The position numbers and the translations under genes were made by a program. The notes beneath the pieces were generated by a model. It worked only from the letters and a program-made list of their open reading frames with translations. It was not told the DNA's origin and did not search any database. From Parietichytrium sp. I65-24A (taxonomy: Eukaryota > Sar > Bigyra > Thraustochytrida > Thraustochytriidae), in contig BLSF01000006.1 in the NCBI GenBank assembly GCA_012862575.1, positions 434,001 through 498,000 on the forward strand: a stretch of 64,000 nucleotides of DNA, read 5' to 3'. The stretch's first letter is position 1. Every line of letters starts with the position of its first letter. This document shows positions 2,629-52,638 of the stretch, one piece after another.

Positions 2629-3049
2629 AAACTATCTGATCCAATCAAAGTAAAATGTTACGTGTGACAATCGTTGTAGAGGGGAATAAGAGAATCAGTC
2701 TAAAGAATACAGTCAAGTTGCAATAATGTTGTTGTCACTTGTTCCTCAGACTTGCTCAGAACATTGATTTGATAGATAGAAAGAGCCAAGTAGCCACATC
2801 TTCTCAGTTTCCAAAGACAGAGTTGCTTTTCACAATACTGTTATTCATCAACTTTTTGGAGTCGAAAGTGCTTTCGAACTTGAAGGAGTGTTTCAGCTTT
2901 CAGGTAGCAACGTGTTTTGACAGCAGGCGTCCGAGCTCTGTAGCTTGTCACTTCTCTTGTATTTCAGGGTGTTGGAACCGATTGCATGTTATGAATCTCA
3001 GCAAACGTTTGGAAGAACAAATAAAATATTTACACGCTGTCCTATGAAT
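2629..3049. other. convergent intergenic region
   Basis: This lies between two converging genes. An AATAAA at about 3019-3024 could serve the upstream plus-strand gene as a polyadenylation signal. No other feature was recognised. Confidence 0.4.
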
Positions 3050-3553
3050 CTACTTGTCTTTTGTCCGCAGACGAAGGATTCCGCCGTGAAACGATGCATC
3101 ATTCCACTTGTGAATGTCGTCACCACGTTTCTTCTCTTTGCTACGAGTGCTCTTCCTCTTCTTCGTTTGTTTTCCTGTGACTAGCTCGGAAGCCGACTCT
3201 TCCGCCTTCCTCTTCGCATCCCTTTTCGCATGAGTCTTCTTCATGTTGTAGTAGATCCTCTGCGGGATCTTTGGCGGGTCTGGCCGTCTGATGCCTAGCT
3301 TGGCAAGCCGCTCAATCTCGTATGCTTTCCTTTCGCGCTTGCCCAAATTACTCGCCCCAACCTCCATCACCTCTTCCCATAACTCATCGACAGTTTTCGG
3401 CAAGTCCTCTTGCGCAAACTTCTTCATCGCGGACGACCCACTTGAGCTCTCACTACTTCTCACATGGCCAGAACTTCTTCCATGCCGTGGCCTGTCGCTT
3501 TCGTCACTAAACTCCACCACCTTCACCGCGCCACGCACTCGCGGCTTGCTCAT
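3050..3553 (-). CDS. Faf1/C1orf131-like ribosome assembly protein (DUF4602-like)
   Basis: The open frame begins at a GTG; the first ATG is at 3553, giving 167 residues starting MSKPRVRG. The protein is small, basic and probably mostly disordered. It has a central conserved-looking helix (GKRERKAYEIERLAKLG) and Lys-rich nuclear/nucleolar targeting stretches, and it ends in a short block with GGILRLRTKD. That architecture and ending resemble yeast Faf1 and human C1orf131, small-subunit processome factors for 18S rRNA maturation. The match is by eye and the family is short and low in complexity, so the assignment is tentative. The gene converges on the KH-Smr gene. Confidence 0.55.
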   Translation of the reverse strand: MSKPRVRGAVKVVEFSDESDRPRHGRSSGHVRSSESSSGSSAMKKFAQEDLPKTVDELWEEVMEVGASNLGKRERKAYEIERLAKLGIRRPDPPKIPQRIYYNMKKTHAKRDAKRKAEESASELVTGKQTKKRKSTRSKEKKRGDDIHKWNDASFHGGILRLRTKDK

Positions 3554-4341
3554 ATCGCCAGCCACCTACCAAAACTTCCAAACTTCTCTTTCCAAGCAGA
3601 CTCTCACGCTCACTCACACAACCACTGTCGCTGAACCGTACGCGCACTGTGCACACTCGTTCAAGGTACCGTACCGCGTACTCCTTTACTGTACTCGTGC
3701 TCACTGTGGACGACGATAAGAAGTCATAACAGAAGTTTGTCGCAACCAGTCAACATCACTCCTAATGTGAGGGGTAATCAACCATTCATTACTAGACACA
3801 AGACGATAAACACAATAGGATGAGTTTTTTATCGTGCCTAAGTCTATACTGACTTAGGGATTACATTGTGCAGCGTATTAAGATCTTGAAGAGTCGCAAT
3901 TTGCGACTCGCAATTATTGCTTGGAGAGGTCTCCTGAGTAGCGGGAACGGTAATAAGAAACGTGACATACTCTGCGATGCGCAAGAAGGTCTGAAATCGC
4001 CGAGAGCGTCCTCCTTGACGGAGAGGTTAGGTTACTGAATACGGAAAAAACTACGGAAATTGCAAATAATTCACAAGTTCACAAGTTCACGAGTCGCTGT
4101 TCACAGAGCGCCACAACCCGAAGAGAGAGCAAGTAACTTACTGACAGTGAGCACACGTACGTACAACTTGCGACGATTGAGAGATATTGAGTACAACTTG
4201 CGACGATTGAGAGGTATTGAGAGCTCCGAACGAACTCAGTTTGCTGACTCGTGGGTCAGAGTTCCGGGGTGAGCGGGCTTGAGAAGGCTTTCGGGAGAGA
4301 GGAGTGGCCAAGCAAGCACTCTAAAAAGCTAAAAAGCAGGG
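3554..4341. other. divergent promoter region
   Basis: This lies between a minus-strand gene and a plus-strand gene. It holds a perfect 9-bp inverted repeat with a 1-nt centre at 3891-3909 (arms GAGTCGCAA/TTGCGACTC) and a 30-bp tandem duplication at 4161-4220. No coding region is supported. Confidence 0.5.
4161..4220. repeat. 30-bp tandem duplication
   Basis: Two copies of a 30-nt unit beginning GTACAACTTGCGACG (4161-4190 and 4191-4220) differ at one base. The repeat lies about 120 bp before the start codon of the membrane protein at 4342. It could be a duplicated promoter element or a recent replication slip. Confidence 0.9.
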
Positions 4342-4896
4342 ATGGTGCGCCTGAGGGGCTCTGTGCTGGTGGCAAAGAGGGACGCGCAAACTTCCAGTGC
4401 TCGAGCTCGCACTCTTTCGAAGGCCAAGCCGGATAGCAGAGGCCCTCGCCTCGTGCTTTTAGCGTATGGAGGAATAAGTCTTGCGATGCACTGCAAGTTG
4501 AGATACTTGGACGGGTTTGAAGACCTTGTACGGCCGTGGAGCGGCATCGCGCTGTGGATAGCCTATGTGTCGCTCGCAGCTTTGCCAGCCAGCATGCGCA
4601 AGGAGTTCAGTTTTGGCATGGTGATTGCGGCAGCTGTGGTTGGCGTGGCAGGAGTGGCCTTGCCGATTCGGAAAGCGGCTTATAAGGAATCAGATGCGGA
4701 GGTGGCCAAGTGGATGGCGGCGTGGCATGCTATGGGAGCTATCGCGACCCTCGGAGTGAGCGTGCTGGAAGCGCTGAAAGAGCGGCGCAGGGCCCGCGCT
4801 CTCCTCGACTTTCGACGACGCAGAATGGCTTCTGGCGGACCGCTGCCCTCTGCGGCATCAGCGCAGACGGCGGCAAAGATTCGCAAAGCAGATTGA
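4342..4896 (+). CDS. small polytopic membrane protein, unknown family
   Basis: 184 residues from an ATG. The N-terminal 30 residues are basic and rich in Ser/Arg, compatible with an organelle targeting peptide. Four hydrophobic stretches follow at about 35-52, 68-85, 91-110 and 125-145, and the tail is again basic (ERRRARALLDFRRRRM). I recognise no family motif. Length, basic ends and helix spacing suggest an integral protein of an organelle or ER membrane, but this is inference. The gene converges on the Tyr/His-rich gene about 600 bp away. Confidence 0.6.
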   Translation: MVRLRGSVLVAKRDAQTSSARARTLSKAKPDSRGPRLVLLAYGGISLAMHCKLRYLDGFEDLVRPWSGIALWIAYVSLAALPASMRKEFSFGMVIAAAVVGVAGVALPIRKAAYKESDAEVAKWMAAWHAMGAIATLGVSVLEALKERRRARALLDFRRRRMASGGPLPSAASAQTAAKIRKAD

Positions 4897-5506
4897 GCAA
4901 AGATCGAGGTATCTCGGCGGTACGGCGGGCGCATTACAAGGACGATGTATATTTTAAAACTATCTTGTCAAGGCTCTAAAGTGTGACATGAAGGACGCAC
5001 AACGATGTAATGAGTGATAGCGGAAGCATCTTTCCCTGCAAGGTTGGGTGGGAGCAAGAATGTTCTTGTTCACAGTCAATAAAAAAAAGAAAGATATAAA
5101 TTAGTGTTCATCAACAGGTCAAAGTCTGTTTCTGTACTATGTACTATACACAAAAGCCAAGCCTACAGGGAAGTTGGGCGTCGTTCTTCACAACGCAGCA
5201 CACTTTCCCTTTGCATGCTTTTCTCAGGAACCGTTGCCATGCTTCATCGCCTGCTCGATAGTCCCAAAGCAGGCAGCGAGCGTGGCAAGACGGTTGATTT
5301 TCTAGCCCTACAAGTCGCATTTTGACGAATAAAATCTCTGAGTCCTGTGCAGCAAGAACAGTTTGCACAGGGAGCCATAATGATCACAACACATCCCACA
5401 ACACGTCGCAAGTTAACGAATAGTAACACATAAACTCTCGACGGTGCTTTGTTCTCTTTTTCACACACACAGAGGCGAAGATGCAACCCAGTCAATACAC
5501 GCCGAT
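4897..5506. other. convergent intergenic region
   Basis: An AATAAA within an A-rich stretch at about 5079 is a plausible polyadenylation signal for the upstream plus-strand gene. I see nothing else that can be supported. Confidence 0.4.
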
Positions 5507-6529
5507 TTAAAACTCCTTGGCCTCAGAATACAAGGTGAAGGAGCTGTACGGCGCAGCAGATGGCTGCATGCTTGGCTCAGACTTGCAGCTAACGAGCCCC
5601 GAAGTTGGAGTGGAAGGCTCAGATGTTCGGCGGAACTTTGGAGCAATTACGCTGTTCTTGCGCGCAGAGAGGTTGAAAGCAGATGCAGACCTTTGGCGCA
5701 TCTGAAGCATGCTGCGCTTCTGGATCATTCTCCTGATCTGTTTGAGACGCTGATCCACCTTGCAGCGTGGGCAAACTGTTCCTTTTCTGTGCTTGTGCTT
5801 TGCAACAGCGGTCTGCTTCTCGACGTCCCTCTCCTCCTGGTGGAGCTCAGAGTCGTTAAGCTTGGTGATGCTCTCGGGGATGGATGTCATCCTCAGCCGC
5901 AGGAGCGTTCCGGCTGATGAGTGCTTGGAAAGCAGACTTGAGCGGCGCGACGATGGGGATACTTTGGTGAGCTTGTCGCTGGTCTTGGGTCCCGCGCTGG
6001 CCAATGGGCTAGACACTGGGAGAGGGCCGTCGAGTGGGCTGAGATCCGTGTCAAGCTTCACGCCCTTTGATGCAGAGCCTTCTTGACCTTCTTCAAGAGA
6101 TGGAATTACAGACTGCTCATGCTCTGGGTGGGTGTACAAACCTGACGAGTAGCTGGATTCCGGGGAGGAGGACATGCGATAGTCATCCATCGAATATGAG
6201 CGACCGTAGTATGAGTGTGCTCCGTATGGGTACTCCTGGTGGCACGGCGTCTCGCCGTGCATCTGCTCGTGACCGTACATGCTGTACGAGTGTCCGTGTC
6301 CGTAAAAGCTGTCGTGGTGGCTCACGTCCATGTGCTGATGTGTGTGGCTGTCGTAGTGGTGGCTGTCGTATCCGGAATAGTATGAAGACGATGCTTCCGA
6401 ATAAAGATCAGTTTCCGGGCTAAACTCGTGGACATCTTCGTAGTACCCATGCTCTGTGTATTCCTGCTCGTTCGCGGCGTAGCTCGAGAAGTCGCGAGCG
6501 ATGAAGCTGAGATCCTCTGTTTCCATCAT
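5507..6529 (-). CDS. Tyr/His-rich low-complexity protein with CxxC-basic segment
   Basis: The open frame begins at TTG. The first ATG is at 6529, giving 340 residues starting MMETEDLSF. Residues about 24-130 are extremely rich in Tyr, His and Ser (many HH, YY, SYY and YGHGH runs) and must be disordered. Residues about 140-240 are Ser/Pro-rich. A compact block at about 245-285 contains KHRKGTVCPRC followed by the basic helix KVDQRLKQIRRMIQKR, which could be a small metal-binding or nucleic-acid-binding element. The tail has Ser-rich possible phosphorylation sites. No family is recognised. Tyr/His-rich segments often mediate condensation or metal binding, so a nuclear or RNA-granule role is possible but unproven. 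Confidence 0.7.
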   Translation of the reverse strand: MMETEDLSFIARDFSSYAANEQEYTEHGYYEDVHEFSPETDLYSEASSSYYSGYDSHHYDSHTHQHMDVSHHDSFYGHGHSYSMYGHEQMHGETPCHQEYPYGAHSYYGRSYSMDDYRMSSSPESSYSSGLYTHPEHEQSVIPSLEEGQEGSASKGVKLDTDLSPLDGPLPVSSPLASAGPKTSDKLTKVSPSSRRSSLLSKHSSAGTLLRLRMTSIPESITKLNDSELHQEERDVEKQTAVAKHKHRKGTVCPRCKVDQRLKQIRRMIQKRSMLQMRQRSASAFNLSARKNSVIAPKFRRTSEPSTPTSGLVSCKSEPSMQPSAAPYSSFTLYSEAKEF

Positions 6530-14775: not shown

Positions 14776-17004
14776 TTACGGATTCTCTGCGATGATGCTT
14801 TTGGCCCTCAGAATAGTGAGTTTATCCTGTCTCTCGCACGCGCGAGAATATTTAACATCCAAGAGCTCCGACCAATTAGCCATGTTCATCCCAATGTTGA
14901 GCTGCATGATATTCTGAATGATCCCATCCCACTCCTGCTCGGCATCACTATCCGCCCAGGAACCACTTGAATCAAGCCTTTTACAATCTTCCAGAGACTC
15001 GCGCGTCTTCACTAGTTCCTCCACGAAATAGTCTGTTACACGTAAGAGGCAGTGTCTATTAAACCAATTGTGATTGACTGACAATGTGTCCTCCAAATTG
15101 ATGACGAGATGATACCACCCGCTGGGAACAAAGATTGCTTCGCCTGCGCGCTGCACCACAATCTTGGGAAGTTTTACTTGTCCAACAGACGGAAATGTGG
15201 CTGCCGTTCTGGTCAAAGCTCTACGCAAAATATCCTGGAGCTCAGAGCTATTTTCCATGTCCGTCAAAGAAGCGTTCGGTTTGCTCATGTCTGCAGAATC
15301 GTACCATTTCAAGGCGTCCTCCAAGAACCCATCAAGAAAAGGCACCCCGTTCAAAAACGCCCCATCATCAGCAGCAAACAAAAGCCACAGTTTCACACCG
15401 ACAATATTTGCACTCCAGCTGTAGGAGCGAAATACGTCGTGGTGAAGTCCTGTCTTTGTGCCCTTCGGGCCGCAATAAACAAACCTATAATCGCTTTGCT
15501 TTGAATCTTTTGCCGGTGTCTTGTTCAAATAGTACCAATTTAACCAGTCATCCATAAACGGCAAAGGCGTCTCGTACAGTTTGCCGCCTGCATCATGCAT
15601 AGCGTGCCAGTCTTTCAGGTATCCCGCTGTCTTGGTTCCGTGCGATTTCCAGCATTGCACAAATTCAGCCAGAGGAACCTGCACGCAGTCCATGGTCTCC
15701 GAGAGGCCAGCGCCTTTTCCAGGCCCAAGATTATCTCTCCACCTCGCAAGGCAGGTCTCGCAACGACTTGCAACTACGGGGACGACGCAAGAGCCAAATT
15801 CAGCAGAGAGCTGGTCAAGATTGATAGAATTCTCAGGTTGCGACACCCACTTCTCCTTGCAAGGCGATAGGTTCACTCCACGCAACAAACATGGGGTGTT
15901 CCTCTGCATGTTGAGATTAAACTCTGCAATGCTCTCTGCATCGATTCGTGCAACACGAGATTCGTTGCTGTGAAGGCACGCATAAAAGAGCTTGATCGAT
16001 CTCCGGTTCACATCTTTGTTGATCATCGTGGACAAGTTCTTGTAGTAAAAGAGCTCGTTCTTATCTCCTTCCTCCGTCTCCACTAGCTCCGAGCTCATAT
16101 CCACAATACGAATGCCGCTGCGCCGCAACTCAGATACAAAGAGATCGAATGTCTTGACATTTCGCTTCGTAGAAACAAAGAGCGCAAAGCTGTCCGGTGG
16201 CCCTTTCTGCAGAACATGCTTGACCACACCAAGCAGTGGTCTGATCAGTTCCGGCGCGTACACACAGTCAGCAATCAGAAGTGTGTCAAATACATCGAGG
16301 GTTTCCAGGTCGCTTCTCTCCATCCAGTCCAGCCTCCTCACGTCCACAAGTCCGTGCCCATCTCCCAAACTATTCTCCGCGTTGGTCTTCACGTCGCTAC
16401 CCAAATTGATCTCCACGTTGTGCGAGAGGTTTTCCAGCACCTCTTCGTCAAAGTCCGTCATCGTCAGACGCCCGAGCCGCGCCATTTTACGCAGGACGAG
16501 CCCCGTGAGCCCAATGCCAGCGCCAAGCTCGAGCACGTTCCTGCCTTCGAACACCCCAGGGTTCGCCACCGCATAGTCCGCCAGCACCATCCCGGCCTCC
16601 CACGGCAGTAATCCCACCTTCCTCAGCGGCCCGTGATCCACGCGCACGGAGCAGATCTCTTGGCCATTCGCAAACCCAATTCGCATATACGAGAACTCAC
16701 CACGGGCCCTGGTCTCCGAGCCGGAATCCTGCGCAGAGCTCAGCGCCGCCGCGTACACAGAGTCATCGACTTCTTCGCCTGCGTCTTCCAGCGCGCGGGC
16801 CAGCGCTTTTCCCACCCTGCTCCGCAAGCCCGCCGCGCATGCGCGGTCTTCCGGAAACATCTCACGCCATAGCTCTGCCTGCGACGCGCTGTCCTTGCTT
16901 GCAAGAGACAGCGCCGCCAGCGCCGCCGACACCACGTGAGACGACGAAGCCTGCTGCCGCGCGAGCCACACTGCGCGGCGCCATGCCGCGTCCTTGTCCG
17001 CCAT
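14776..17004 (-). CDS. fused EEF2KMT/FAM86-like methyltransferase and JMJD4-like JmjC hydroxylase
   Basis: The frame opens at GTG; the first ATG (17004) gives 742 residues starting MADKDAAWRR. The N-terminal 340 residues are a family-16 class I methyltransferase with a helical leader like FAM86. Motif I is VLELGAGIGLTG (about 157-168), followed by TDFDEEVLENLSHNV and RRLDW, as in EEF2KMT, which methylates a lysine of elongation factor 2. Residues about 350-660 match JMJD4, the iron/2-oxoglutarate enzyme that hydroxylates a lysine of release factor eRF1. The signature DYRFVYCGPKGTKTGLHHDV precedes FRSYSWSAN, with ligands H521, D523 and H632 (GWYH). Both active sites appear intact. The two parts are separate proteins in animals and plants as far as I know. 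Fusion suggests coordinated modification of translation factors, which is inference. Confidence 0.9.
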   Translation of the reverse strand: MADKDAAWRRAVWLARQQASSSHVVSAALAALSLASKDSASQAELWREMFPEDRACAAGLRSRVGKALARALEDAGEEVDDSVYAAALSSAQDSGSETRARGEFSYMRIGFANGQEICSVRVDHGPLRKVGLLPWEAGMVLADYAVANPGVFEGRNVLELGAGIGLTGLVLRKMARLGRLTMTDFDEEVLENLSHNVEINLGSDVKTNAENSLGDGHGLVDVRRLDWMERSDLETLDVFDTLLIADCVYAPELIRPLLGVVKHVLQKGPPDSFALFVSTKRNVKTFDLFVSELRRSGIRIVDMSSELVETEEGDKNELFYYKNLSTMINKDVNRRSIKLFYACLHSNESRVARIDAESIAEFNLNMQRNTPCLLRGVNLSPCKEKWVSQPENSINLDQLSAEFGSCVVPVVASRCETCLARWRDNLGPGKGAGLSETMDCVQVPLAEFVQCWKSHGTKTAGYLKDWHAMHDAGGKLYETPLPFMDDWLNWYYLNKTPAKDSKQSDYRFVYCGPKGTKTGLHHDVFRSYSWSANIVGVKLWLLFAADDGAFLNGVPFLDGFLEDALKWYDSADMSKPNASLTDMENSSELQDILRRALTRTAATFPSVGQVKLPKIVVQRAGEAIFVPSGWYHLVINLEDTLSVNHNWFNRHCLLRVTDYFVEELVKTRESLEDCKRLDSSGSWADSDAEQEWDGIIQNIMQLNIGMNMANWSELLDVKYSRACERQDKLTILRAKSIIAENP

Positions 17005-18492
17005 CGCGACTCTCCACTGGAACCCAAGCGCCAAGGAGGCCCCGGCCGCCACGTGCCGCTGTCAGCGCGTGGAGGGGCACCGACTGACGGGACAGTAGAC
17101 GAAGCGGTCTACCACGAACGAAGCGCAAGCAGAGCGCCGGCGGCCAGTCGTCCACCTCCCTCCTTGTCTCTGTGCAGCTGGCTGGCTGGTTGGCTGGCTG
17201 GCTGGCTGACTGGCTGACTGGCTTCGCTGACTCTACTGTCCTTGCTGTCTTGGCTGTCTGTCTTGGCTGTCTTGGCTGTCTTGGCGTTCGTTCATTCATT
17301 CATTCGTTCATTCATTCTATTTCGCTCAATCGTTCATTCTTCCTATTCGTTCGACCAACCAACCATCCAATCAACCAACTTGAACGGCCAACCGCCAACG
17401 CCTCCGCGTATCCAATGCAAGTTGCCACGTTGCGGCTGCGCTGCTGGGCCACCATCATCATGCTGACAAGGGTTATTGCAATAGCCCTGCACGACAACAT
17501 TCGGCGTCTGCATCGATTGTCATGCTCAAAACTTGCCATTTCATTTGCTGGCGCTCACCGCGCCACTACTCAGACTGGGTACGTTCGATTGAAAGTTGGC
17601 TAGTTCAATGTGGACAACATGGACAACGTGGATGCGAAGCTAGCTTACCGGGCAGCAGTGGCAGCAGTGGCAAAAGTGGCAAGAGGAAGTTTCCACTTTC
17701 GCACTTTCAGTTTACACTGTCTGACCTGGGACCAAGTGCAAGAGTGGCAAGAGTGGCAAGAGGCTGTCAGAGGTGTGCGTCTCGAACGCCTTGCCTTGCC
17801 TCGCCTTGCGCTTGCCATGCGTTTCCAAAGCCAGCGCCGCAAGCAGCTCAGGATTCTTTCTCCCAAGATCGCGATCCATCACGATTTCGCGCCGCTCGAA
17901 GCACCAACTTCAAAACAGAAATCCCAATAAAAGCAATGAAATCATTGAAAACATTTGTTGCTCATGAAACACTGCAAGCTCTCGTTGACATTCTATTTTC
18001 CATTGATTTTCAAAGTTGGCCGCAACAACAGCAACAACAACAACAACACTGGCAAACTGACATGAACTGACATACAATTTCACTTCGCACAAACTCGCCG
18101 CACCATTTCTCGCCTACGCGCTGCCATACACTCGTCCTAGCCCTCTCCGCCACATCGCCAACTCGCGACTCTGTCACTTTCGCACACCTCGCCCTGGCGA
18201 GGCTGATTATCGTCACGTGCACCCGCGTGTGACGGTAAATCTGGACGTCAATTACGTCACGAAGACGCCATCATGACGCGAGTGCACACCGTGCGAACAG
18301 AGCGGCTTCGCAGAGCGCCGCACGGGGGTGAACGGAGGGAAGATCTCGCGAACTTTGTCGCGAGGGAAGGTTGCAGGGCGAGTCATGATGACCTGGATAT
18401 TGATTTTCACAGATTTTCACAGTGAAGATAATAGATGGTCGCGGGAAGGAAGGAGAGCTGGAAAAGTGCGCAAGAGAGGGCGATAAGCGACA
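17005..18492. other. divergent promoter region with simple repeats
   Basis: This lies between the methyltransferase-JMJD4 gene (minus) and the anchored methyltransferase (plus). It contains a GGCT-type tetramer repeat (about 17179-17222), ATTC/GTTC-rich repeats (about 17288-17350) and a CAA repeat (about 18025-18050). A bZIP/G-box cluster lies near the plus-strand start. Small frames here follow the repeats and are not called. Confidence 0.5.
18214..18259. promoter_or_regulatory. G-box and CRE-like cluster
   Basis: The palindrome CACGTG (18214-18219) and TTACGTCA (18252-18259, the reverse of TGACGTAA) lie within 50 bp, with ACGTCA just before the latter. They are 230-280 bp upstream of the plus-strand methyltransferase start. 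These are classic binding cores for bHLH/bZIP factors. Actual use is inference. Confidence 0.4.
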
Positions 18493-33525: not shown

Positions 33526-36500
33526 TCAAAACTCCAAGGAGGAGTTGACGCCAACGCTAGACGGCCGATCTAAATAGGAGCGCCTTCGAACAAGGAGTGA
33601 GGGCGAAGATGCAGCGGAAGTCAAGGGCCGGGTTTCGAACAGACGTTCTTTGAGCACGGCGTCTAAAGCTGCGATCCATAAATCATAATCCTGCAAGCGT
33701 TTTGCCCGCAGCCGAAGGGTTGTTCTAAGCTTTGGGCACGACAGCTCAAAGGTGAGCTTTTCTTTGCCGCTGTATACGGTGCAATGCTCATCGAAATTGA
33801 TGACGCCGCGGCAATCCAGGTCGCCTTTCTTCTTGAACCACTTGAGAGAGGAGTGCCGGAGCACACACCATCTTTCTTTCCAAGACATGCCTGACATAAA
33901 AGACTTTTTCAAAAGATATCCTTCAAAGAGAACACGCTCAGAATGACGATACTCAAAAACGCCCAAAGGAAGCTTCAGCAGATCCTCCACAAGAAAGCTT
34001 CTCTCCAGGGCTGCGACCCAGTCGTGACTTGAAGGCGAGTCTTCTGACTCCACCAGAGTGAATTGCCAACTAGATCGTGGTTTGCTCTTCAGATCATCAG
34101 GGACAGAGTGTATCACAAACTCAGAGTCTGACTTGGCTACAGCGTGGGTAACTGTCGGTTCCCACGATATGTCACCTTTGAACTCGCCTTCATTATTCAC
34201 GTAAAACAAACGCGGGAAAGGGCCCGTCGTGTACAACAAAGCGCGCACTTTTCTGCTCTTCAGAAGACTGACTTTGCGCCGATGCCGTGGGCGACCAGGA
34301 GGAGGGGAAGACACAAAGCTTTCCACACTCGAGGTAAAACTGAACTCCTCGCCAAATGCGGACATCGGCGACTGTGGAGAGTCTGGCTTGGAGGACTCTC
34401 GGGTTAGTGGCAAGGACAGCAGGTCGACCGTCTCCACGACCAGCGAGCAAATGACAATGGCCTCGTTTGGCCTCAAGTGGGCTTTCCATGGCCTCCTTCG
34501 GCGTAATAGGTTCGCAACTTTTTGGTACGTCATGAGAGCGCGACAAAATGCTTGAATTATAGTCGCAGCCCGATCTTTCAGCGCAGCTGTTGTGTCTCCA
34601 AGGGGTACAAGGTGTCCTGTGCGCATCTCACTTGAATCTGAGTGGGTGCGGCGTTCAAAACTTGTGTCGCTCGGCTGCCGCGCGTCCTCGCGGTGAATTA
34701 TGGATGAGTGCTCAGGTTCCCAGCAAGGAGCTCCCCTCCCCAGAGATGTTATCATTGACGTAGGGTCACGTACCCCATTGCTCTCGTCCTCACCAGGAAG
34801 GTGGCTCAAATTAGTGGATAGGAGATTAGCCTTACGCTTGTGGATGCGCTTGTAAAATAGCGCGATCGTCGAAGCAGCATGTTCTCTCCGTCTCAGTTCC
34901 CTTCGAAGATTGTTTTCGGCAACGATTGTTTTGATAGAATTGCGAATGGACTCTCGTTTGTTCACCTTGATGTGATGGCCGTCGTATTGACGGGTTTCAA
35001 TATCGCTTGACTCTTCGCCCGTCCCTGGACCTTGAGCAAGTTCTGTAGAATGGTTTTCTGGATCAGCCTGCACTGCAACAATCTGTGACAGCGAGAAATG
35101 ATCCGTAGGTATCGTGATCTCTAGTCTGTTATGGTGATTGGGAGCAAATGCATCACCGTTCTCTGGTCCGAACGTAGGGGGCGGCGGATCAGTTGGTGGC
35201 GGTGGTGAGGATGGTGGGGAAATGAAGCGGAACGACCCCAACGACTCAGAGGGACCTCTCAACTCGGGCTCCGAGTACGTCGAAGTGCTTGACGCTGTTG
35301 ACACCGTCCTCCATTGCCTACCAACGCCAAAAGTTGCTTTGATTCTATCCAACACGAACAAAAACTCGTCCGTTCCAAAGACATGTGTGGACTTTACAGA
35401 ATACTCATCACTGGGCCCGATTAAAGCGATGAGCACTTCACGAACCTGGTCTGCGTTTACAATCTCCAGCTGATTTCGAAAGATGCAACGGTACGATTCC
35501 ACAAAAACTGACAATGGTACGCGAATGGGAAAATAAAGGCGTGAGCGGCGCTCCGCAACCGCGTAGAGCCCGGGAATCACAAGACTCCTATGTATCCAGG
35601 AACCTGGTCCGGTCTCCAGACCCTGACGGACACCTGAGAGAGGAATGCAATACACATGGTACGCATCGAGGAAAAAAGAAGGTGAGCTTAGCAAGGCGTT
35701 GATGTTTTCCTTCTGGGTAGCCAACTCTGTTCGCCTATCTTTGCACATCTGGAATACAAGCCGGCTCAGGCCGGGAACAGTCCCTTGCGAGAGCGCATTG
35801 ACAATCTCGGTAGGAACCCGTGTCGCCAGGCGCTCCTTACTTTCGTCCACTTCGTAGTGAATTAGCCCAAAAGAGTGCTGAACGGTTTGCGAGACAAGTG
35901 ACGGGGCCGCTATTGCATTTCCCAGTTGATCTTTCCAAAAGCTGGAGCTCAGTGGTAGGGTGTGAACGCCTCCTGGTTGCCTTCTCCTGTGCTGCAAGGA
36001 TTCTTCCACTGCTGCGAGAGAATTTTTTCCGGCCTCTGTCAGCGCCTCCCATATCAAGTGTCTCCAGAGCGTGTCTGCTGTTTGAACATTTTGACCTACA
36101 GTACCCCAATCGGGGTCAGCAAGCTCAAGGACTTGTATGGTCACTCCGCTCTCACTGCCGTCTCCGGCAGCACCCGCGATGCGTGGAGACCCGCTTGACT
36201 CCACCCAATCAACTATAGTGTTATTGATGCACTCTTCTAAAACATTCAAAAAGCTCAAATAAAGTTCACGGACGAGGCCGCGAATAGCCGCGGCGGGATC
36301 CCTGCACGTTTGGAGAAAACTTCGGATGACCTCGAGCACTTTATCTCCCCACCCGAAGAGAAGTGCGCAGGACAGGAGTCTTCTTTCGCTCTCCGAGGTG
36401 AGCTTGTATGCACCGTCTAATTTCAAAAAGGCCAAGTGGCCAAGGTCGAGTACACCGCGCAAAAACCGTAGTGCCGATTTAGGGTCGACGCCAACCGCAG

Positions 36501-37212
36501 CTAGGCACTTTTGGGTCCTCGCGAAAGACTCCTCGTTTTTTTCTTCAAAAATGTTATAAGACTGGTCCAGATGCTCGTACGCAGGGATTCTAGCGATGCC
36601 CACGAGCTGGTAGAAGACGTTCAGGCTCCATATCTTGCTGCAGTCAAGAAAGGTGACCTTGCACTTGGCCATCTGGCAGTCAAACTCATCAAACCTGAAC
36701 GCAAACTCCTTGCAGTACGTGCCTTCCGAGGCCGGGTCCCAGTGCCCCGCAAACGTGGCGAGCAAGATGTCCCCAATCTTGAGCAGTTTCCTCAGCTTCT
36801 TCAATCGCTCTGCGCTTCGCTCCTTCACCTTTCCTAGCGCGAGTCCGAACAGCTGGTCTACCACCACCTCGCACGCCGCTCGCCGGCTCCTCTGATTCCC
36901 GCCCCGCACTACCATCTCTTTCGTCCCCACGCTCCTCAGCGCGCCCCTGCACCACCGCAGAGTACCATCATTTCCATCCTTCGCGTCCTTCGCGTCTTTG
37001 TCCCTTTGACCCTTGCTTCCTTTGCTTCCTTTGCTCCCTTTGCTATCTTTGCTCTCCGTGCGGCGCGACCGTCTCGCGCAGTAGTCCTCGAACGGGTTCA
37101 CCCACAGTTCGCCGCCGTCGCCCCACACCACGCGCCCCGAGGACCCCCCGCAGCTGGCCACCACGCGCGACAGTCGCAGCCCGCTCAGTGAGCGCACGTC
37201 CTCGGCGCGCAT
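33526..37212 (-). CDS. highly divergent myosin-like protein with PH domain, probably not an ATPase
   Basis: The frame opens at GTG; the first ATG (37212) gives 1228 residues. The order of segments follows a myosin head. GGELWVNPFEDY (about 34-45) stands for VAVNPYK. FYQLVG (about 200) follows, then FLRGVLDLGHLAFL (about 250-263) for the ILHLGN region, FGLIHYEV for HFAGxVxY, and a converter-like AERRSRLYFPIRVPLSVFVESYRCIF (in two parts, about 553-578). However, the P-loop GESGAGKT is replaced by RGGNQRSRRAA (about 103-113), switch I has no NxNSSRFGK, and switch II DIxGFE reads ELADPDW. ATP hydrolysis is therefore unlikely. IQ-like helices (AASTIALFYKRI; AATIIQAFCRALM) precede a C-terminal PH domain (about 1100-1195, EGYLLKKSFMSGMSWKERWC). 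It may act as a static membrane adaptor. Confidence 0.75.
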   Translation of the reverse strand: MRAEDVRSLSGLRLSRVVASCGGSSGRVVWGDGGELWVNPFEDYCARRSRRTESKDSKGSKGSKGSKGQRDKDAKDAKDGNDGTLRWCRGALRSVGTKEMVVRGGNQRSRRAACEVVVDQLFGLALGKVKERSAERLKKLRKLLKIGDILLATFAGHWDPASEGTYCKEFAFRFDEFDCQMAKCKVTFLDCSKIWSLNVFYQLVGIARIPAYEHLDQSYNIFEEKNEESFARTQKCLAAVGVDPKSALRFLRGVLDLGHLAFLKLDGAYKLTSESERRLLSCALLFGWGDKVLEVIRSFLQTCRDPAAAIRGLVRELYLSFLNVLEECINNTIVDWVESSGSPRIAGAAGDGSESGVTIQVLELADPDWGTVGQNVQTADTLWRHLIWEALTEAGKNSLAAVEESLQHRRRQPGGVHTLPLSSSFWKDQLGNAIAAPSLVSQTVQHSFGLIHYEVDESKERLATRVPTEIVNALSQGTVPGLSRLVFQMCKDRRTELATQKENINALLSSPSFFLDAYHVYCIPLSGVRQGLETGPGSWIHRSLVIPGLYAVAERRSRLYFPIRVPLSVFVESYRCIFRNQLEIVNADQVREVLIALIGPSDEYSVKSTHVFGTDEFLFVLDRIKATFGVGRQWRTVSTASSTSTYSEPELRGPSESLGSFRFISPPSSPPPPTDPPPPTFGPENGDAFAPNHHNRLEITIPTDHFSLSQIVAVQADPENHSTELAQGPGTGEESSDIETRQYDGHHIKVNKRESIRNSIKTIVAENNLRRELRRREHAASTIALFYKRIHKRKANLLSTNLSHLPGEDESNGVRDPTSMITSLGRGAPCWEPEHSSIIHREDARQPSDTSFERRTHSDSSEMRTGHLVPLGDTTAALKDRAATIIQAFCRALMTYQKVANLLRRRRPWKAHLRPNEAIVICSLVVETVDLLSLPLTRESSKPDSPQSPMSAFGEEFSFTSSVESFVSSPPPGRPRHRRKVSLLKSRKVRALLYTTGPFPRLFYVNNEGEFKGDISWEPTVTHAVAKSDSEFVIHSVPDDLKSKPRSSWQFTLVESEDSPSSHDWVAALERSFLVEDLLKLPLGVFEYRHSERVLFEGYLLKKSFMSGMSWKERWCVLRHSSLKWFKKKGDLDCRGVINFDEHCTVYSGKEKLTFELSCPKLRTTLRLRAKRLQDYDLWIAALDAVLKERLFETRPLTSAASSPSLLVRRRSYLDRPSSVGVNSSLEF

Positions 37213-45960: not shown

Positions 45961-48888
45961 TCAGTTCCACGCCAAGTGCTGTTCATCGGTCTGCCCACTC
46001 ATTTCAGCCGACTCATCTGACGTAATCCAAGTCGATTCTCCAGTCAGTGGATCGTAGGTGTAATAGCATCCCGTCTCTGGATCGTAGTGAGTTTCGACGC
46101 CGCTTTCCACTGCATTCTCTAAATTCGAAGACGCGGCCTGGCTCCAGGCTTGGGAAGTGGCCCAATAGGAAGACTCGTCTGTGGGCTCGTCGTTGTAGCT
46201 CAGAGAGCCATAGTCCCCGGTGCTGGATTCTACACCACCAGAAACTTCGTCAACAGAATAGGACAACGATGCGTTCAGCTCTTGCACTTCAAGCCGAGCT
46301 GCTTTCTGCTGCTTTTGAAACGCAATTCTAAATTGCCGAAGCATTTCCCATGACTCGATCTCAGCATCATAAATTTGAAACCGGCCCTCCATCTCTTTGA
46401 CTTTAATCCATTCGTGGTCCTCACCACCCTCCTCGGTGTATTCGATCCTGTGCTTTTGCTTTTTTTTGTTAAATCTGGCAACAACTCCTAGCCGCCAATG
46501 TCCATTAACTGCATCATGCACGCGCACGTAGCGGGACAGCAGAGCCGACTCAAATGAGTCATTTCCGTACGGCTCATACGTCCTTTCGTTTCGGCTTGGG
46601 GAGAAATAGAATGGGCGCTGATGGACTGGGTCCCAGTGCTCTTGCCAGTCATCGGACTCGTCCTCTTCAATGTACCCTCCTAGAGCCCGAATGTCGTCAT
46701 CCTCCGATGCCGAATCGCGGCCCAACCCCATCTCGCGGAGAGTGATTTTTTTGGCCACTTTACTAGCAGCCTGATCATGCAACTCAGTCGCACGCTTTTT
46801 GATGAGCTCTTTCGCTCGCTGAAGCTTAATAACTTGCCACCTTGGAACATTGTGTCCTCTAAAAACGCTCTGTATTAAAGTCGCCTTGGCGATCTCATTT
46901 CTCCGTTTCTCGACTTGCATACGATAGTACAGTCTGCCGAGTTGTCCCCTTCGTACCTTTTGCAGCATCATCGCAGCTTTCCGCTGCTGCCTTCGCTCCT
47001 CCTCTCTCTCCTCGACCAGTTTCTGGAAGAGTTCCCTGCCTATCTTTCCTCGAAAAAGTCTTTGCAGATGCGTTGCAGCACGAATCTGTCTCGCATATCG
47101 GATGTTAAAGGCAATTTGCTTGCGATCGCGCTCCAAATAGGCGAGCTTTCGGCGAACAATGCATTGAATTGATCGAGCCGAAAAAAAAAGGTCCTTTGAT
47201 CGATGAAGCAATTCCTCCCTCCTGGCGGCATGAAGAGATTGCGATATGGTACGCCTTACTATGGATTGAACTCGTACGACCACAGCTGCCTTGACTTCTA
47301 TGAGTCTAAGCTCCTTGACCATCTCCAAAGCATCGGCGACTTGTCTGTTGCTCTTACGTTCCATTTTCCCTCTAAACATGGCCTGTATCTTGACCGCGTA
47401 TTGAGCAAGACTGGCCCTCAGCTTGGCTTTAGCCCGTTGCATCAAACAAATCAGTCGGGACAGCCTACCCCTCCACCACCTCTGCAGAGTGGTTGCCGAC
47501 TCGGACCTATGCCTGAAGAGCAGCCTGGACACGAAGAGTTTCCTGGCGCCCAACTTTCTAAACCAGCACTGAATAGCCTGAGCTGCCTGTTCTTCTAATA
47601 TCCTCTGCTTCTCGCGTCTCAAGTACAGGCGGGTTCCATGCCCGCGAATAGCTGCCGTTATCACCCTGGAGGCATGTTCCATATTTACATTTGCCTGCGC
47701 TTCCAACTTGAGCACGTTTACTTGCTCTTTAGGTTTGAATCCAGTGTAGCTCTTGGCAAGCTCCACGAATTCAAGAGCGCGCAGCATTTCACTCAAGCCG
47801 CGCTCGCTAATTAATTCGCAGCCATTGACGTTGAGTACCTGGATGGCCTTGTTGTGGTTGACAATAAAAAAGATCCCCAATTCCGATACTTGAATGCATC
47901 CAGACAGATTAAGAGCCTGCAATTTGGAGCACTTGCCCAGTTGCTCCAGCCCCCGATCGGTAATTTTGGCGCATTTGGAGACATTGAGAGAGCGCAAGGT
48001 CTCCGAGCAAGCCCCCCCAATGCCCGTCAGACTCTCATCGGTCAGGAGCGCGCACCCCGCCAGATTTAGAACCTGCAAACGAGATCCATGTTTAACCAGC
48101 CCGTCAACCCCTCGATCGCTAATTTGCGAGCAGCCCAGTAGATTTAGGAATCTGAGACTGCGACAGCCCCTCCCGAGAGCCACGAGGCCGCTGTCCCTAA
48201 TCTTTTTGCAGTCTTCTAAGCCAAGGAATCTTAGCTTCACACAGGACATGGAAGAGCCATTGACTCCCCCGAGCCAGCGTAAGCCGTCCTCAGACACCTT
48301 GACGCACGATGACACATCCAGCGTTTTGAGCGTGAGACTTGCCGACTCAGCCACCGCCCTCAGGCAGCTGTTTGTCAGCAACTCACACCGCCTCAGGCGG
48401 AGAACCTCGATGCTGTACAGTCTTGCCACCAGCATGCCCATCATCTCATCGGTTACCGGGCTTCCGGAGAGGTCCAGCTCCACCAGTCTCTCCCCGAACC
48501 CTAGCGTCAGACTCCTCAGCCCCGCCTCGGAAACCTTGTACCATTTCCGCAGAGCCAGTATCCTGGCATGTGTCAGCAGCTCGCCGAGCTCGTACAAAAC
48601 CGCCTCGGAAAAAACCTCTCCGCTCAAGTCCACACTTGTCGAATTTCGCCCAAATTGCCGCGCCAGCTGTCTCGCTTCGAAGCTGCCCGCCTGATTGCCG
48701 CCTGCCTCATCTTCAAGTGGCACTTGCGCTTGGTCCGCGGCCCCCGGCCAGATATTTTGCTGGCACATGTGCCTTCGCAGAGATGCATCGCGCTCTTGAT
48801 GCCGCTCATCTCCGGAGCGCGAGCGGCGCTTGGCTCTTCGCTGCCGCCGCGCGTTGGGCGAATGCCGCTGCGGGAGTGGGGGAGGCAT
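45961..48888 (-). CDS. LRR-IQ-WW scaffold protein
   Basis: The frame opens at GTG; the first ATG (48888) gives 975 residues. After a basic, Arg-rich leader, residues about 85-390 are about eleven cysteine-containing leucine-rich repeats of the F-box/AMN1 type (LRFLNLLGCSQISDRGV; LQVLNLAGCALLTDESL). No F-box is seen before them. Residues about 400-700 hold about nine IQ-like calmodulin-binding helices (AAQAIQCWFRKLGARK; AATHLQRLFRGKIGREL). Two WW domains (about 745-778 and 928-958) flank a Tudor-like segment (about 784-835, VRVHDAVNGHWRLGVVARF). It looks like a calmodulin- and Pro-motif-binding scaffold, perhaps cytoskeletal. Function is inference. Confidence 0.88.
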   Translation of the reverse strand: MPPPLPQRHSPNARRQRRAKRRSRSGDERHQERDASLRRHMCQQNIWPGAADQAQVPLEDEAGGNQAGSFEARQLARQFGRNSTSVDLSGEVFSEAVLYELGELLTHARILALRKWYKVSEAGLRSLTLGFGERLVELDLSGSPVTDEMMGMLVARLYSIEVLRLRRCELLTNSCLRAVAESASLTLKTLDVSSCVKVSEDGLRWLGGVNGSSMSCVKLRFLGLEDCKKIRDSGLVALGRGCRSLRFLNLLGCSQISDRGVDGLVKHGSRLQVLNLAGCALLTDESLTGIGGACSETLRSLNVSKCAKITDRGLEQLGKCSKLQALNLSGCIQVSELGIFFIVNHNKAIQVLNVNGCELISERGLSEMLRALEFVELAKSYTGFKPKEQVNVLKLEAQANVNMEHASRVITAAIRGHGTRLYLRREKQRILEEQAAQAIQCWFRKLGARKLFVSRLLFRHRSESATTLQRWWRGRLSRLICLMQRAKAKLRASLAQYAVKIQAMFRGKMERKSNRQVADALEMVKELRLIEVKAAVVVRVQSIVRRTISQSLHAARREELLHRSKDLFFSARSIQCIVRRKLAYLERDRKQIAFNIRYARQIRAATHLQRLFRGKIGRELFQKLVEEREEERRQQRKAAMMLQKVRRGQLGRLYYRMQVEKRRNEIAKATLIQSVFRGHNVPRWQVIKLQRAKELIKKRATELHDQAASKVAKKITLREMGLGRDSASEDDDIRALGGYIEEDESDDWQEHWDPVHQRPFYFSPSRNERTYEPYGNDSFESALLSRYVRVHDAVNGHWRLGVVARFNKKKQKHRIEYTEEGGEDHEWIKVKEMEGRFQIYDAEIESWEMLRQFRIAFQKQQKAARLEVQELNASLSYSVDEVSGGVESSTGDYGSLSYNDEPTDESSYWATSQAWSQAASSNLENAVESGVETHYDPETGCYYTYDPLTGESTWITSDESAEMSGQTDEQHLAWN

Positions 48889-49502
48889 GCGCGCAGACGA
48901 GGCATGCGCTCTTTGATCGCTCAAGAAAGTTGAGCTCAGGGCCAAAGTTGAGAGTGAGGTTGAGGTCGAGTTGTGGTGCGTGGCTGCGATAGACTGTGAT
49001 GCACTGGTCCTTGCTTTTCCGTGTTTTGTTCTGTTCACTCACTCTCTTGCCACTGGGCGACTCACTCTGCAGAGTCTCACCTTGCACCGCGGCCTATCAC
49101 ACTTTGATGAGTTGCCTTGACTCCTCGGCCGACTCTTCAATTTCTCTTGCGAGGACCATTTCACCTTTCACCTTTCTCCCTAGTTGCTACTCACTGTTAA
49201 TAGGCCGGAATCGAAGGAGACCACCAGTGTGCTAGCTAGTGGCGACAAATGATTAGTACTCAGTAGCAAATAAGCAATACTGACCTGTAGCCACGCGAAG
49301 GGAATCAGGCGATTTAACGTTTCGTTTATAAGCGTGAATAGAACAGTCGCAACGGACACGTTTAGAGAATGGTCTGAACGAGTTTGTAGTTTGTGGATCT
49401 ATGGAAGCGCAAGTTTGGCCAAAGTTTGGGTTCGCGGAAGAGGAAGTGTGATGAAAACGAAAAACAAGATCGAACGATATGGAAGATCATGTTACGGTGG
49501 TT
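48889..49502. other. tandem intergenic region
   Basis: 614 bp upstream of the LRR-IQ-WW gene and downstream of the flavohemoglobin stop. It is pyrimidine/purine mixed, with a poor repeat CACCTTTCACCTTTC near 49163. No gene is supported. Confidence 0.4.
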
Positions 49503-50792
49503 TTATGACTGGGTCTCAGACTTTAAGGTATTGACTGCACTTGCGCCGTTCCCTGCCGCGGAGGTGGACACTTTTTCAGGACTCTCTGTTTCTGGGTTCG
49601 CTGGCAAAGGGTTCACATGCGTGTCTGCCGTTTCGGCCTCAGAGGATGTCTTCACCGTACCAGTTCCGAATACTTCGGCACGAATTTGCGACTCCGGGAC
49701 CTCGTGACTCGATATAGCTTTGGTTATCTCGGCAAGGAAACCTGTGGGCCCGCACACAAAGTATGTACAGTCTTTGCCACATTTCGTGACAAGCTCTTCG
49801 GCGATTGCGTTGAGGTCTGGTCGGCCTGACTCGGCAGTGTAAATGGTTTTGACATCTTGAATTCCAGCAGCTGCGAATTCTCCGCTCTTCCCATCTCTTG
49901 ACGCTGTCTTGTCAACATGCAAAACGGTGGCAACCTTTTCGGCTCCAAAGTGTCTGCAGAAGGCTAGCATTGGCGTGATGCCGATTCCGGCGGATATTAA
50001 AGCCACCTTTGCGTCGCTCTCTTCGGGAACATAGACACCATTAGGGGCCCCAAGAAGGACTTTGTCACCGACGCTCAACTTGTCATGCATGTAGTTGCTC
50101 ATGATCCCGTCTTTAACACGACGGGTGCAAATTTTGAATGTTTCGGAGCCAGGGGGGCTCGTGATGGTGTAATGCCTTGGCGCCTCCTGCAGGCCTTCGC
50201 ACCGCACCGTGACATACTGGCCAGCAGAAAACTCAAATCCGTCTACGTATCCATCGGCCGCCTTGAACTCGAACTCGACAGTGTCCTCAGCGAGGGGAGA
50301 TTTCGCCGCCAGAAGAAACTCACGTTCATACCGCCACCCTCCTTTACGAGCTTCGTTCTTCTTGTATAAATCTTCCTCCGCATTTGTGCAGATCTCTGCA
50401 AGCGCCAATACGGAGTTCGACCAAGCCGTTGCGATTTCTGGGGTCACAGCTGCGCCAAGAACTTTTCCGATGGCAATCATTAAATTCCGGTGAACAATTG
50501 CATAATGCTCGGGTTTCACGCTCAAAGCGCAGTGCCGGTGGGCCATTTTCGCAACAAGTGGCCCCAATTTATCAAGCTCTTCAATATGCACGGCATATGC
50601 AACAACTGCGTCTGCAAGAGCTCGAGGCTGTTTGCCATGTTTCTGGTGGGATTTGTTGAAGAAAGCAAGGACCTCGGGGTTGTTTTCGAACAAGGTTTTG
50701 TAGAAAGTCGTCGTGATCTCCAGCGCATGCTCCGCAACCACCGGGGCGGTGGCTTTGATCACCGCGATCGTTTCGGGGGTCAGCAATGACAT
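49503..50792 (-). CDS. hmp: flavohemoglobin (nitric oxide dioxygenase)
   Basis: 429 residues from the ATG at 50792. The frame runs further upstream, but MSLLTPETIAVIKATAPVVA is the normal family start. The globin domain (about 1-140) has the B10 Tyr in FYKTLF and the F-helix block AHRHCALSVKPEHYAIV with the proximal His. The FAD domain has RHYTITSPP. The NAD domain has SAGIGITPMLAFCRHF and TYFVCGPTGFL. It converts NO plus O2 and NADPH/NADH to nitrate. The core ends near residue 380 (AEVFGTG) and is followed by about 48 Ser/Thr/Glu-rich residues not found in bacterial Hmp. Flavohemoglobins occur patchily in eukaryotes (fungi, some protists), often through transfer from bacteria. Confidence 0.97.
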   Translation of the reverse strand: MSLLTPETIAVIKATAPVVAEHALEITTTFYKTLFENNPEVLAFFNKSHQKHGKQPRALADAVVAYAVHIEELDKLGPLVAKMAHRHCALSVKPEHYAIVHRNLMIAIGKVLGAAVTPEIATAWSNSVLALAEICTNAEEDLYKKNEARKGGWRYEREFLLAAKSPLAEDTVEFEFKAADGYVDGFEFSAGQYVTVRCEGLQEAPRHYTITSPPGSETFKICTRRVKDGIMSNYMHDKLSVGDKVLLGAPNGVYVPEESDAKVALISAGIGITPMLAFCRHFGAEKVATVLHVDKTASRDGKSGEFAAAGIQDVKTIYTAESGRPDLNAIAEELVTKCGKDCTYFVCGPTGFLAEITKAISSHEVPESQIRAEVFGTGTVKTSSEAETADTHVNPLPANPETESPEKVSTSAAGNGASAVNTLKSETQS

Positions 50793-52638
50793 CTTGCTCA
50801 AACCAGGTGCTCCACAACTCTGATTCCAGTTTAGGGTCTGCAGTGAGGGGTCAGTTGTATTGAAGAGCTCACATGGTGTAGTGTCTTGCTTTCTATGTGG
50901 GGGGGGGTTGAGCATTTCCAAGCACACAAGAAGAGCACCACAGGACCCTCAGATTCCTCAAACATCCTCAAAGCCTCTCACAGAGTATACATTTTCTCTG
51001 TAAACTTCATTTGGACACCTGGGCATCACCCCCTCACTCACTTTTCCAAAAACCAATCAATCAACAAACAATGGCAAGGTTTCCCACTGCTTACTAGTAG
51101 AATGACTCCAGCTGCGGAGAGTGAGATGAACCGTTGTCATCACTCTGGAGAGTCAGCTTAGGGCAGGGAAGCGTTGCACGACTGTGGTGGATGCCTGCTG
51201 TAGCTTTCGGCTGCCTTTGACGTCCAATGCTTCCTGACAAAAATGCATCCAATCCGTTCTGATCTATTTGCTGATTGCAAGTTGCTTTACCGGTCACGGT
51301 GGGCATTCCGAGTCGCTAAGACTCTGACTCGTACTTCATTAGTACCGGGATCTACCGGTAACTTCTTCACTTTTTGAAACTTGATCACGAAGTAAGCTTA
51401 TCACGAACTACACCTCACGTACGCAGTGTAAACTGGATCCGCCGCCAGTATGGCCAGGGGTTGCAGGTGCTCACTGTCGCTTGCCTCCACTGGAATACTG
51501 AAACTACGACGTCGATCCACGAACACTCGATTGACATTCACCCAATTCACCCCCCAGATGCACCCCATTCCATCACCCCTATACACTACTATAATTACTA
51601 TTATATTAATTATTCCTTATACAAGAAACTAAAGACAGAATTTGCGGAACGCAATTCTGACAAAATGTTGATCTGATTAATTGAACTAATTGGACATAAT
51701 TGGACACTATTTCATTATTATCTGGACATAGTTCGACATAGCTGGTCCGGTACTCAGTACTGACAATGTGGCTACGGCAGTGCCACTGCCAAGGCCCTCC
51801 CGTAGTGTGACCCATCGGGCTTATGCATATTTTACAATATTGTAGGTGGGGCTTACGTTCACAATAGGTGTGGCTGTTGAGTAGTATTTGGCTATCTCTT
51901 CTGATCGAGTAAAGACTCTGCTACTAGCCAAAGGAGACTGCTAGGTAAATGCAGAACAGAAAGATTTTTTCCCTCAGCGAACAACATGAAGCTCTTGACT
52001 TTTCATCCCACGCTACTCTAGTGTTTATTATCGACTTCTACAAGTGCTTAGTTCAGAGTCCCTGGGGGAAAAAATCCTGACCATTGCCAAAGCACACCCA
52101 AAAACGGGTCCCCTATTGACTCCTATTGCGCTCGTAGTTCCGTGCAAGCAGAGAAAAAAATTTGAATTATTGGCCGAGGTCGCGAAGTGCGCTGGGAAAG
52201 CTGCGAAAAACAGAAATAGTGGCTGGAGCACATAGATTGGAGGGGGAGAGTGGAGAGGGAGGGGGGACAAGTCAGAGGGAGACTGCCTGCCGAGTTTGCC
52301 GAGTTTGCCGAGTTGCCACCTTGAGAGAGAGAGAGATAGAGAGAGGGAAGAGAAGAAAGAAAAGAAGAACGGTGAGAGGGCTAGGCTTGGAACGCAAGGA
52401 GCGAACGACGAGGGGACAGCGGAGACAGCGGAGACAGCGGAAACAGCAGAGCGGACAGTGCTCCCACGCTTCCACTCGTTCACTCACTTGTTTGCGTAGC
52501 CACGGAGTACCTTGCTGCGGGCGAACGGGCCGAAGAGAGAGAGAGAAGAGAGAGAGAGACGGAAGTGGGGAAAGCAAGGTGAGGCGCCTGGAAAGAGGCG
52601 CAGGGGCCATTGATTGAGTTTCGGCGAGCGTAGAAACG
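50793..52638. other. 1.8-kb divergent promoter region
   Basis: This lies between flavohemoglobin (minus) and MYB-CXC (plus). It holds a G10 run at about 50898-50907, ACCGGTA palindromes near 51355, a CCGGTACTCAGTACTGAC stretch near 51748, GA microsatellites (about 52324-52345 and 52536-52560) and a GGAGACAGC repeat (about 52420-52450). Frames over these repeats are not called. Confidence 0.5.

Follow-up and report, generated by a model that had tools for sequence, protein, structure and literature searches.

A predicted pseudomyosin with a PH-PH tail in a myosin-rich protist genome

Introduction

What kind of protein is encoded by a gene that resembles a myosin from its head to its tail and lacks, at the expected positions, the motifs of the myosin ATP site? 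The question is raised by P0001, a gene on the minus strand of a 64,000-nucleotide window (Parietichytrium sp. I65-24A, assembly GCA_012862575.1, contig BLSF01000006.1, positions 434,001 to 498,000); coordinates below are those of the window unless another contig is named. A first-pass annotation, made from the sequence alone, had described a myosin-like head in which P-loop, switch I and switch II were replaced, with IQ-like helices and a C-terminal PH domain behind it, and had proposed a pseudo-motor turned into a membrane adaptor, possibly a relic in a myosin-poor red alga. Here, we conclude, with a probability of somewhat more than three in four, that P0001 belongs to a family of PH-tailed myosins and is a pseudomyosin, whose motor keeps the myosin fold without P-loop, switch I or switch II and which would most likely serve as a phosphoinositide-bound scaffold.

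Results

Profile and fold of the P0001 head

P0001 is a single open frame of 1228 codons, found on the minus strand exactly where the first-pass annotation had placed it, with its ATG at 37212 and its stop ending at 33526. Amino acids (aa) are numbered from a GTG at 37281, up to which the frame stays open, and the methionine is aa 24. The domains follow in the order pseudo-head, linker, IQ-like helix, PDK1-like PH and PH.

33526..37212, minus strand: whole P0001 gene, 1228 aa from ATG 37212, open further upstream to GTG 37281
35302..37212, minus strand: pseudo-motor head (aa 24-660); HHalign E 3.1e-6, AlphaFold2 predicted template modelling score (pTM) 0.69, Foldseek myosin matches E 1.5e-17, control model failing

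The head was compared with a profile of 28 myosin heads with intact-type P-loops from the same genome, P0001 being left out. HHalign, the comparison of hidden Markov models that had been suggested as a check, matched P0001 aa 24-660 to this profile with a probability of 88, an E of 3.1e-6 and a score of 56.4 over 435 columns (aa 189-648), well above the controls against the same profile (at most 32.5 for 60 shuffles and at most 32.7 for 28 other open reading frames (ORFs) from the window and the loci). With hmmsearch and the head profile, P0001 scored 12.0 bits and the best of 500 shuffles 2.1. The HHalign match is collinear: it sets in at the strand that follows switch I, passes the equivalents of HIFYQL, LAGILHLGN, HYAGxVxY and IRCIKPN and reaches the converter. 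The ordered head segments noticed at first pass were therefore recovered from transducer to converter; the VAVNPY-like block said to precede them is weak, appearing in the MAFFT alignment only and with a predicted local distance difference test (pLDDT) score below 50. Because of this low score and its position outside the HHalign match, the VNPF block (aa 60-67) is only suggestive of the N-terminal myosin block.

37081..37104, minus strand: WVNPFEDY, weakly likened to the N-terminal VNPF/VNPY block (MAFFT only; model pLDDT <50)
35854..35877, minus strand: HSFGLIHY, equivalent of HYAGxVxY (HHalign and MAFFT)
35632..35661, minus strand: YHVYCIPLSG, equivalent of HFIRCIKPN (HHalign and MAFFT)
35362..35532, minus strand: converter region, FPIRVPLSVF ... 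VKSTHVFGTDEF (HHalign; weak phmmer match to myosin XV, aa 581-615, E 1.4)

Structure prediction gave a similar answer. Supplied with 28 myosin rows from the same genome (25 intact-motif heads plus L040, L041 and L042, three eroded myosins described below), AlphaFold2 modelled the P0001 head with a mean pLDDT of 68.5 and a pTM of 0.69. The best 50 of 378 Foldseek matches to this model (E ≤ 10) were all titled myosin or actomyosin and, among the matches listed, the best E was 1.5e-17 and the template modelling (TM) score by query length was 0.52-0.57. Because a fold could be imposed by an alignment of this kind, an unrelated protein was folded with the same 28 rows; this control, A4, was the unrelated window ORF with the most conserved columns (39/145) among 18 other ORFs. 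It reached a pLDDT of 42.3, a pTM of 0.25, a best Foldseek E of 1.1 and a TM-score of 0.07. The first-pass annotation had named a prediction devoid of motor similarity as an outcome that would count against it; P0001 returned a myosin-type motor. In the model, the P0001 head has a myosin-type motor-domain fold.

Several observations weigh against reading P0001 as a pseudomyosin, and some would suit the idea that its head is not a myosin, but a helical scaffold of other origin that was joined to a PH-PH tail and resembles a motor by chance. In a Pfam scan of P0001, Myosin_head is absent even at E ≤ 10, its cut-off not being reached, and phmmer against PDB sequences returned PH domains together with weak matches to myosin XV (E 1.4 to 1.6, aa 581-616). 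On the MAFFT alignment P0001 keeps 42 of 145 conserved residues, against 32-41 for 12 shuffles and 25-39 for 18 other ORFs, and since these score nearly as high, residue identity alone proves nothing for P0001. Conserved-column counting on MAFFT alignments was for that reason dropped as homology evidence; an in-place permutation of the conserved columns (42 observed, maximum 19 in 2000) is over-optimistic because the permuted sequences are not re-aligned. A tree of the heads cannot place P0001 (branch about 10), while the PH-tailed myosins L029, L031 and L033 of the same genome form a clade (95/97) with L042 outside it. TM-scores of 0.52-0.57 with a root-mean-square deviation of 8 to 13.5 Å denote agreement at the level of the fold only, and a single control protein was folded (n = 1), albeit with a wide gap between it and P0001. 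The top Foldseek rows of control A4, insignificant at E 1.1 and up, were myosin pieces (18/27 rows, about 73-143 columns), and because myosin pieces lead this list we consider that the 28 rows leak some myosin signal. A non-myosin head is nevertheless very improbable: the profile score lies far above that of the 60 shuffles and 28 other ORFs, the predicted fold matches myosins where the control fails, and the tail is related to those of other myosins encoded in this genome. It is the profile score, the predicted fold and the tail that support homology of the P0001 head; residue identity does not.

Loss of the ATP site

Compared with the intact-type heads, all three nucleotide-binding motifs of P0001 are replaced.

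36880..36918, minus strand: P-loop position, EMVVRG then GNQRSRR, instead of GESGAGKT (alignment; strand-loop-helix kept in the model)
36703..36771, minus strand: switch I position, FAGHWDPASEGTYCKEF instead of FGNAKTxRNxNSSRFGK (alignment)
36103..36144, minus strand: switch II position, VTIQVLELADPDWG instead of IIGVLDIFGFE (HHalign and alignment)

At the aligned positions, GESGAGKT has become GGNQRSRR (1/8 conserved P-loop columns kept), AKTIRNNNSSRFGK of switch I has become AGHWDPASEGTYCK (2/11 conserved columns of the NxNSSRFG region kept) and the LDIFGFE stretch has become LELADPDWG (1/8 conserved switch II (DxxGFE) columns kept). The P-loop position and switch I fall at the N-terminal edge of the HHalign match or outside it. 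A search of the whole P0001 protein for the Walker A pattern (G....GK[ST]) came up empty, and the replacement of the three motifs reported at first pass is not offset by an intact P-loop elsewhere in the same protein; homologues with an intact P-loop exist as paralogues, for example L029. Judged from the alignment, P-loop, switch I and switch II are gone from the P0001 motor, and on established myosin biochemistry such a head would be unable to hydrolyse ATP or to step.

The losses are not confined to the ATP site. P0001 keeps 4 of 27 ATP-site columns and 38 of 118 elsewhere in the head, a difference that is not significant (Fisher p 0.10); the corresponding tests for losses concentrated in the ATP site gave p 0.03 for L040, 0.009 for L041 and 0.52 for L042. 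As aligned, the P0001 head is eroded everywhere. Columns occupied in the majority of active heads but empty in P0001 comprise 21 in the relay loop and following helix and a 7-column segment, with the LLDEE segment among the losses, all on a MAFFT alignment of doubtful quality; missing columns at both ends of the head reflect where the sequence was cut. On this alignment, the head has probably lost much of the relay-loop/lower-50K segment.

IQ element and PH-PH tail

Behind the linker, P0001 carries the following elements.

34519..34572, minus strand: IQ-like helix RAATIIQAFCRALMTYQK (Pfam IQ 14.0 bits, below the cut-off of 20.3; aligns with the IQ of the paralogues)
33976..34500, minus strand: first PH region, PDK1-like (Pfam PH_3 27.5 bits, cut-off 25; five-region profile to PDK1 PH 1w1d, E 1.1e-4)
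33655..33930, minus strand: second, canonical PH (Pfam PH 45.6 bits, E 1.1e-11)

The C-terminal PH domain expected from the first reading was clearly recovered (E 1.1e-11); an additional, PDK1-like PH in front of it had been missed. Where several IQ-like helices had been proposed, a single one was supported, below threshold at 14.0 bits. The PH_3 cut-off of 25 bits was passed by the first PH region of P0001 (27.5) and by that of L031, but not by those of L029 (18.6), L033 or L042; a profile of these five first-PH regions matched the PDK1 PH domain in the PDB (1w1d, E 1.1e-4).

A profile of the L029, L031, L033 and L042 tails found P0001 aa 903-1216 by hmmsearch with an E of 1.7e-22, and blastp of the tail against the individual paralogues gave E values of 5e-15 (L029, 24% identity), 6e-11 (L033), 7.5e-6 (L031) and 0.15 (L042). 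As a reservation, part of the tail-profile score reflects general PH likeness, because the PH proteins L006 (E 6.5e-17) and L004 (3.5e-6) matched as well. When the L029 tail was searched against the whole genome, P0001 was the best non-self match (E 7.7e-12), covering both PH regions with a separate match in the IQ part, and most other matches were confined to the last PH. By these sequence comparisons, the P0001 tail shares ancestry with those of PH-tailed myosins in the same genome whose motors are of the intact type.

Maintenance of the frame

A decaying pseudogene, that is, a copy of a PH-tailed myosin drifting without function, would account for the extremely long branch of P0001, for a head that Pfam does not recognise and for the segments missing from it. 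Codon usage is of limited help in this respect. The head scored 0.142 bits per codon in frame and below zero in both other forward frames, but one reverse frame came close (0.112) and the linker was negative (-0.037). Eight domain-bearing neighbours, which belonged to the training set, scored 0.11 to 0.39, and with the neighbours in the training set and a reverse frame at 0.112, codon bias is moderate evidence only. In scans of IMG/VR (viral) and GTDB (prokaryote) contigs, no relative and no orthologue was found.

The open frame itself speaks against decay. Neutral drift simulated for P0001 to just 80% identity introduced at least 7 stops per run (30 runs, mean 12.9), whereas P0001 has 0 stops across 1228 codons despite far greater divergence (tail 24% identical to L029), and both of its PH domains exceed their Pfam cut-offs. 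Since no stop interrupts the frame, constraint has probably acted on the protein during most of the time in which it diverged, and we regard a drifting pseudogene as highly improbable.

Myosins of the host genome

Pfam Myosin_head gave 66 matches in the 42.5-Mb genome, counted as 49 genes; this count is a lower bound, and motif status was read in 32 of the 49. An intact-type P-loop and NxNSSRFG were present in 29 of the 32 (30 rows, as L016 and L032 are the same gene), and the other three, L040, L041 and L042, were eroded to different degrees. Dynein heavy-chain domains gave 18 matches, 17 of them in frames of more than 4100 aa, and searches of the genome for the chlorophyll a/b-binding family (Chloroa_b-bind) and for FabA returned no match. 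The host is most likely a protist with a flagellum and apparently without photosynthesis. Its numerous myosins, its dyneins and its long open frames would suggest a labyrinthulomycete or another stramenopile; the absence of a FabA match argues against a thraustochytrid that has the bacterial-type PUFA synthase. A relic in a myosin-poor red alga, the setting imagined at first pass, is rejected because the genome is rich in myosins, bears dynein and has no chlorophyll a/b-binding match; P0001 is most likely one divergent member of a big myosin family.

Several features of this genome were recorded alongside. Its 49 myosin genes come close to the top of a 2014 survey, in whose accessible text the largest count is 53, in Emiliania huxleyi (PMC3942036), and it carries very long open frames. 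A second pseudomyosin pair consists of L040 (C59:188500-193500, ORF 878-4423, minus strand) and L041 (C147:21000-26000, ORF 603-3620, plus strand), which are mutually 46-48% identical, share a degenerate P-loop (GAESSGKR / GCEGSGKR) and are altered at the switch I and switch II positions. Between the two, pN (non-synonymous) was 0.379 and pS (synonymous) 0.765 with synonymous sites saturated, which suggests constraint at the protein level. L042 (C75:69000-75500, ORF 270-6500, plus strand, running off the fetched stretch) encodes at least 2077 aa of a myosin with a PH-type tail and two SAM stretches; its P-loop (GVSGSGKS) is of the intact type, and its switch I (GDSTCFSK) and switch II (VEAKGFGFP) are altered. 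L031 (C1:172500-181500, ORF 154-6003, plus strand) is PH-tailed, has DIFGLE in place of DIFGFE at switch II and continues in a long extension past the tail. The myosin head of L034 (C12:434500-440000) is spread over two frames, the first match being interrupted by a TAA in frame; this reflects an intron, an assembly error or a broken gene.

Other genes of the window

Three neighbours of P0001 in the window combine domains in a single protein.

14776..17052, minus strand: lysine-methyltransferase-like domain fused to a JmjC/cupin_8 domain
45961..49038, minus strand: leucine-rich repeats, IQ motif and WW domain
49503..50927, minus strand: flavohaemoglobin-like, globin with FAD- and NAD-binding reductase domains

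Discussion

P0001 combines a predicted myosin fold, the absence of all nucleotide motifs and an open frame, the features by which a pseudomyosin is recognised. The same order of head, IQ, PDK1-like PH and PH is found in L029 (C3:39901-43413), which differs in having GESGAGKT, NDNSSRFG, DIFGFE and a charged stretch before the IQ, whereas P0001 has none of these motifs. As a pseudomyosin, P0001 would be held on phosphoinositide membranes by its PDK1-like PH and second PH, and its former motor, still folded, would provide a scaffold or docking surface to which actin, an actin-associated partner or a related active myosin could attach; a calmodulin-like light chain may sit on the single IQ. Binding to lipid, actin and a light chain is a prediction. 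Fold, motif loss, IQ-like element and PH domains of the proposed membrane adaptor could all be computed, and the adaptor role itself is plausible.

Pseudomyosins are a known but rarely described kind. The Trypanosoma cruzi protein MyHd, of which a tagged copy was localised, is termed a pseudomyosin with a predicted myosin head without the conserved P-loop in the accessible part of its report (PMC7300353); by that description it resembles P0001, from which it differs as a kinetoplastid protein found at the cytopharynx. In class 18 (Myo18A/Myo18B), P-loop, switch I and switch II are changed, ATPase activity is negligible and a structural role is assumed, according to the portion of the source at hand (PMC11112018). 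These are point deviations in motifs that stay recognisable, unlike P0001, in which all three are replaced and which ends in a PH-PH tail. Among stramenopiles, the heterokont class XXX/XXXI myosins also have PH domains in their tails (PMC3942036); the accessible text neither describes them as motif-less nor mentions a PDK1-like PH plus PH tail, the comparison being one of descriptions. In a literature search that covered few subscription papers and saw some sources in part, no description of a pseudomyosin with such a tail was found. Relative to MyHd and class 18, P0001 is a case eroded throughout the ATP site.

Two more specific forms of the pseudomyosin reading can be weighed. In the first, the dead head would be a rigor-type tether that binds F-actin regardless of nucleotide, with the PH tail linking it to the membrane, a role comparable to that of class-18 myosins, which associate with actin in the absence of ATPase activity. 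The F-actin binding of class-18 myosins at negligible ATPase (PMC11112018) and the retention of microtubule binding by Cik1/Vik1 without a nucleotide site (PMC4338441), both as given in the accessible text, lend this some appeal, but the 21 relay-loop and following-helix columns and the LLDEE segment are missing from P0001. Because of these gaps in the MAFFT alignment, on which the objection depends, the actin face of P0001 is probably damaged, and we consider a tether possible but unlikely. In the second, an active PH-tailed myosin, for example L029, would pair with the dead head, which would contribute no catalysis to the heteromer. L029 is the best match of P0001 among the myosins and P0001 is the best match of the L029 tail, and the kinesin-14 proteins Cik1/Vik1, whose motor homology domain lacks a nucleotide site in the part of the source consulted (PMC4338441), offer a precedent; theirs is a kinesin fold in a heterodimer with Kar3, and the parallel is an analogy only. 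Dimerisation or another interaction of P0001 with L029 would have to be assumed, and such a partnership appears decidedly unlikely. Quite unlikely, too, is a broader scheme in which several myosin heads have become non-motor parts in this genome (P0001; L040/L041; L042), with P0001 as a lipid-bound, nucleotide-free partner or scaffold for L029 and hence an actomyosin counterpart of Cik1/Vik1.

For the myosin family at large, counts based on Pfam are lower bounds, because the standard Pfam myosin profile can miss heads like that of P0001. With intact-type PH-tailed myosins (L029, L031, L033), the partly eroded L042 and the fully eroded P0001 in one genome, the steps from motor to scaffold would be open to direct test.

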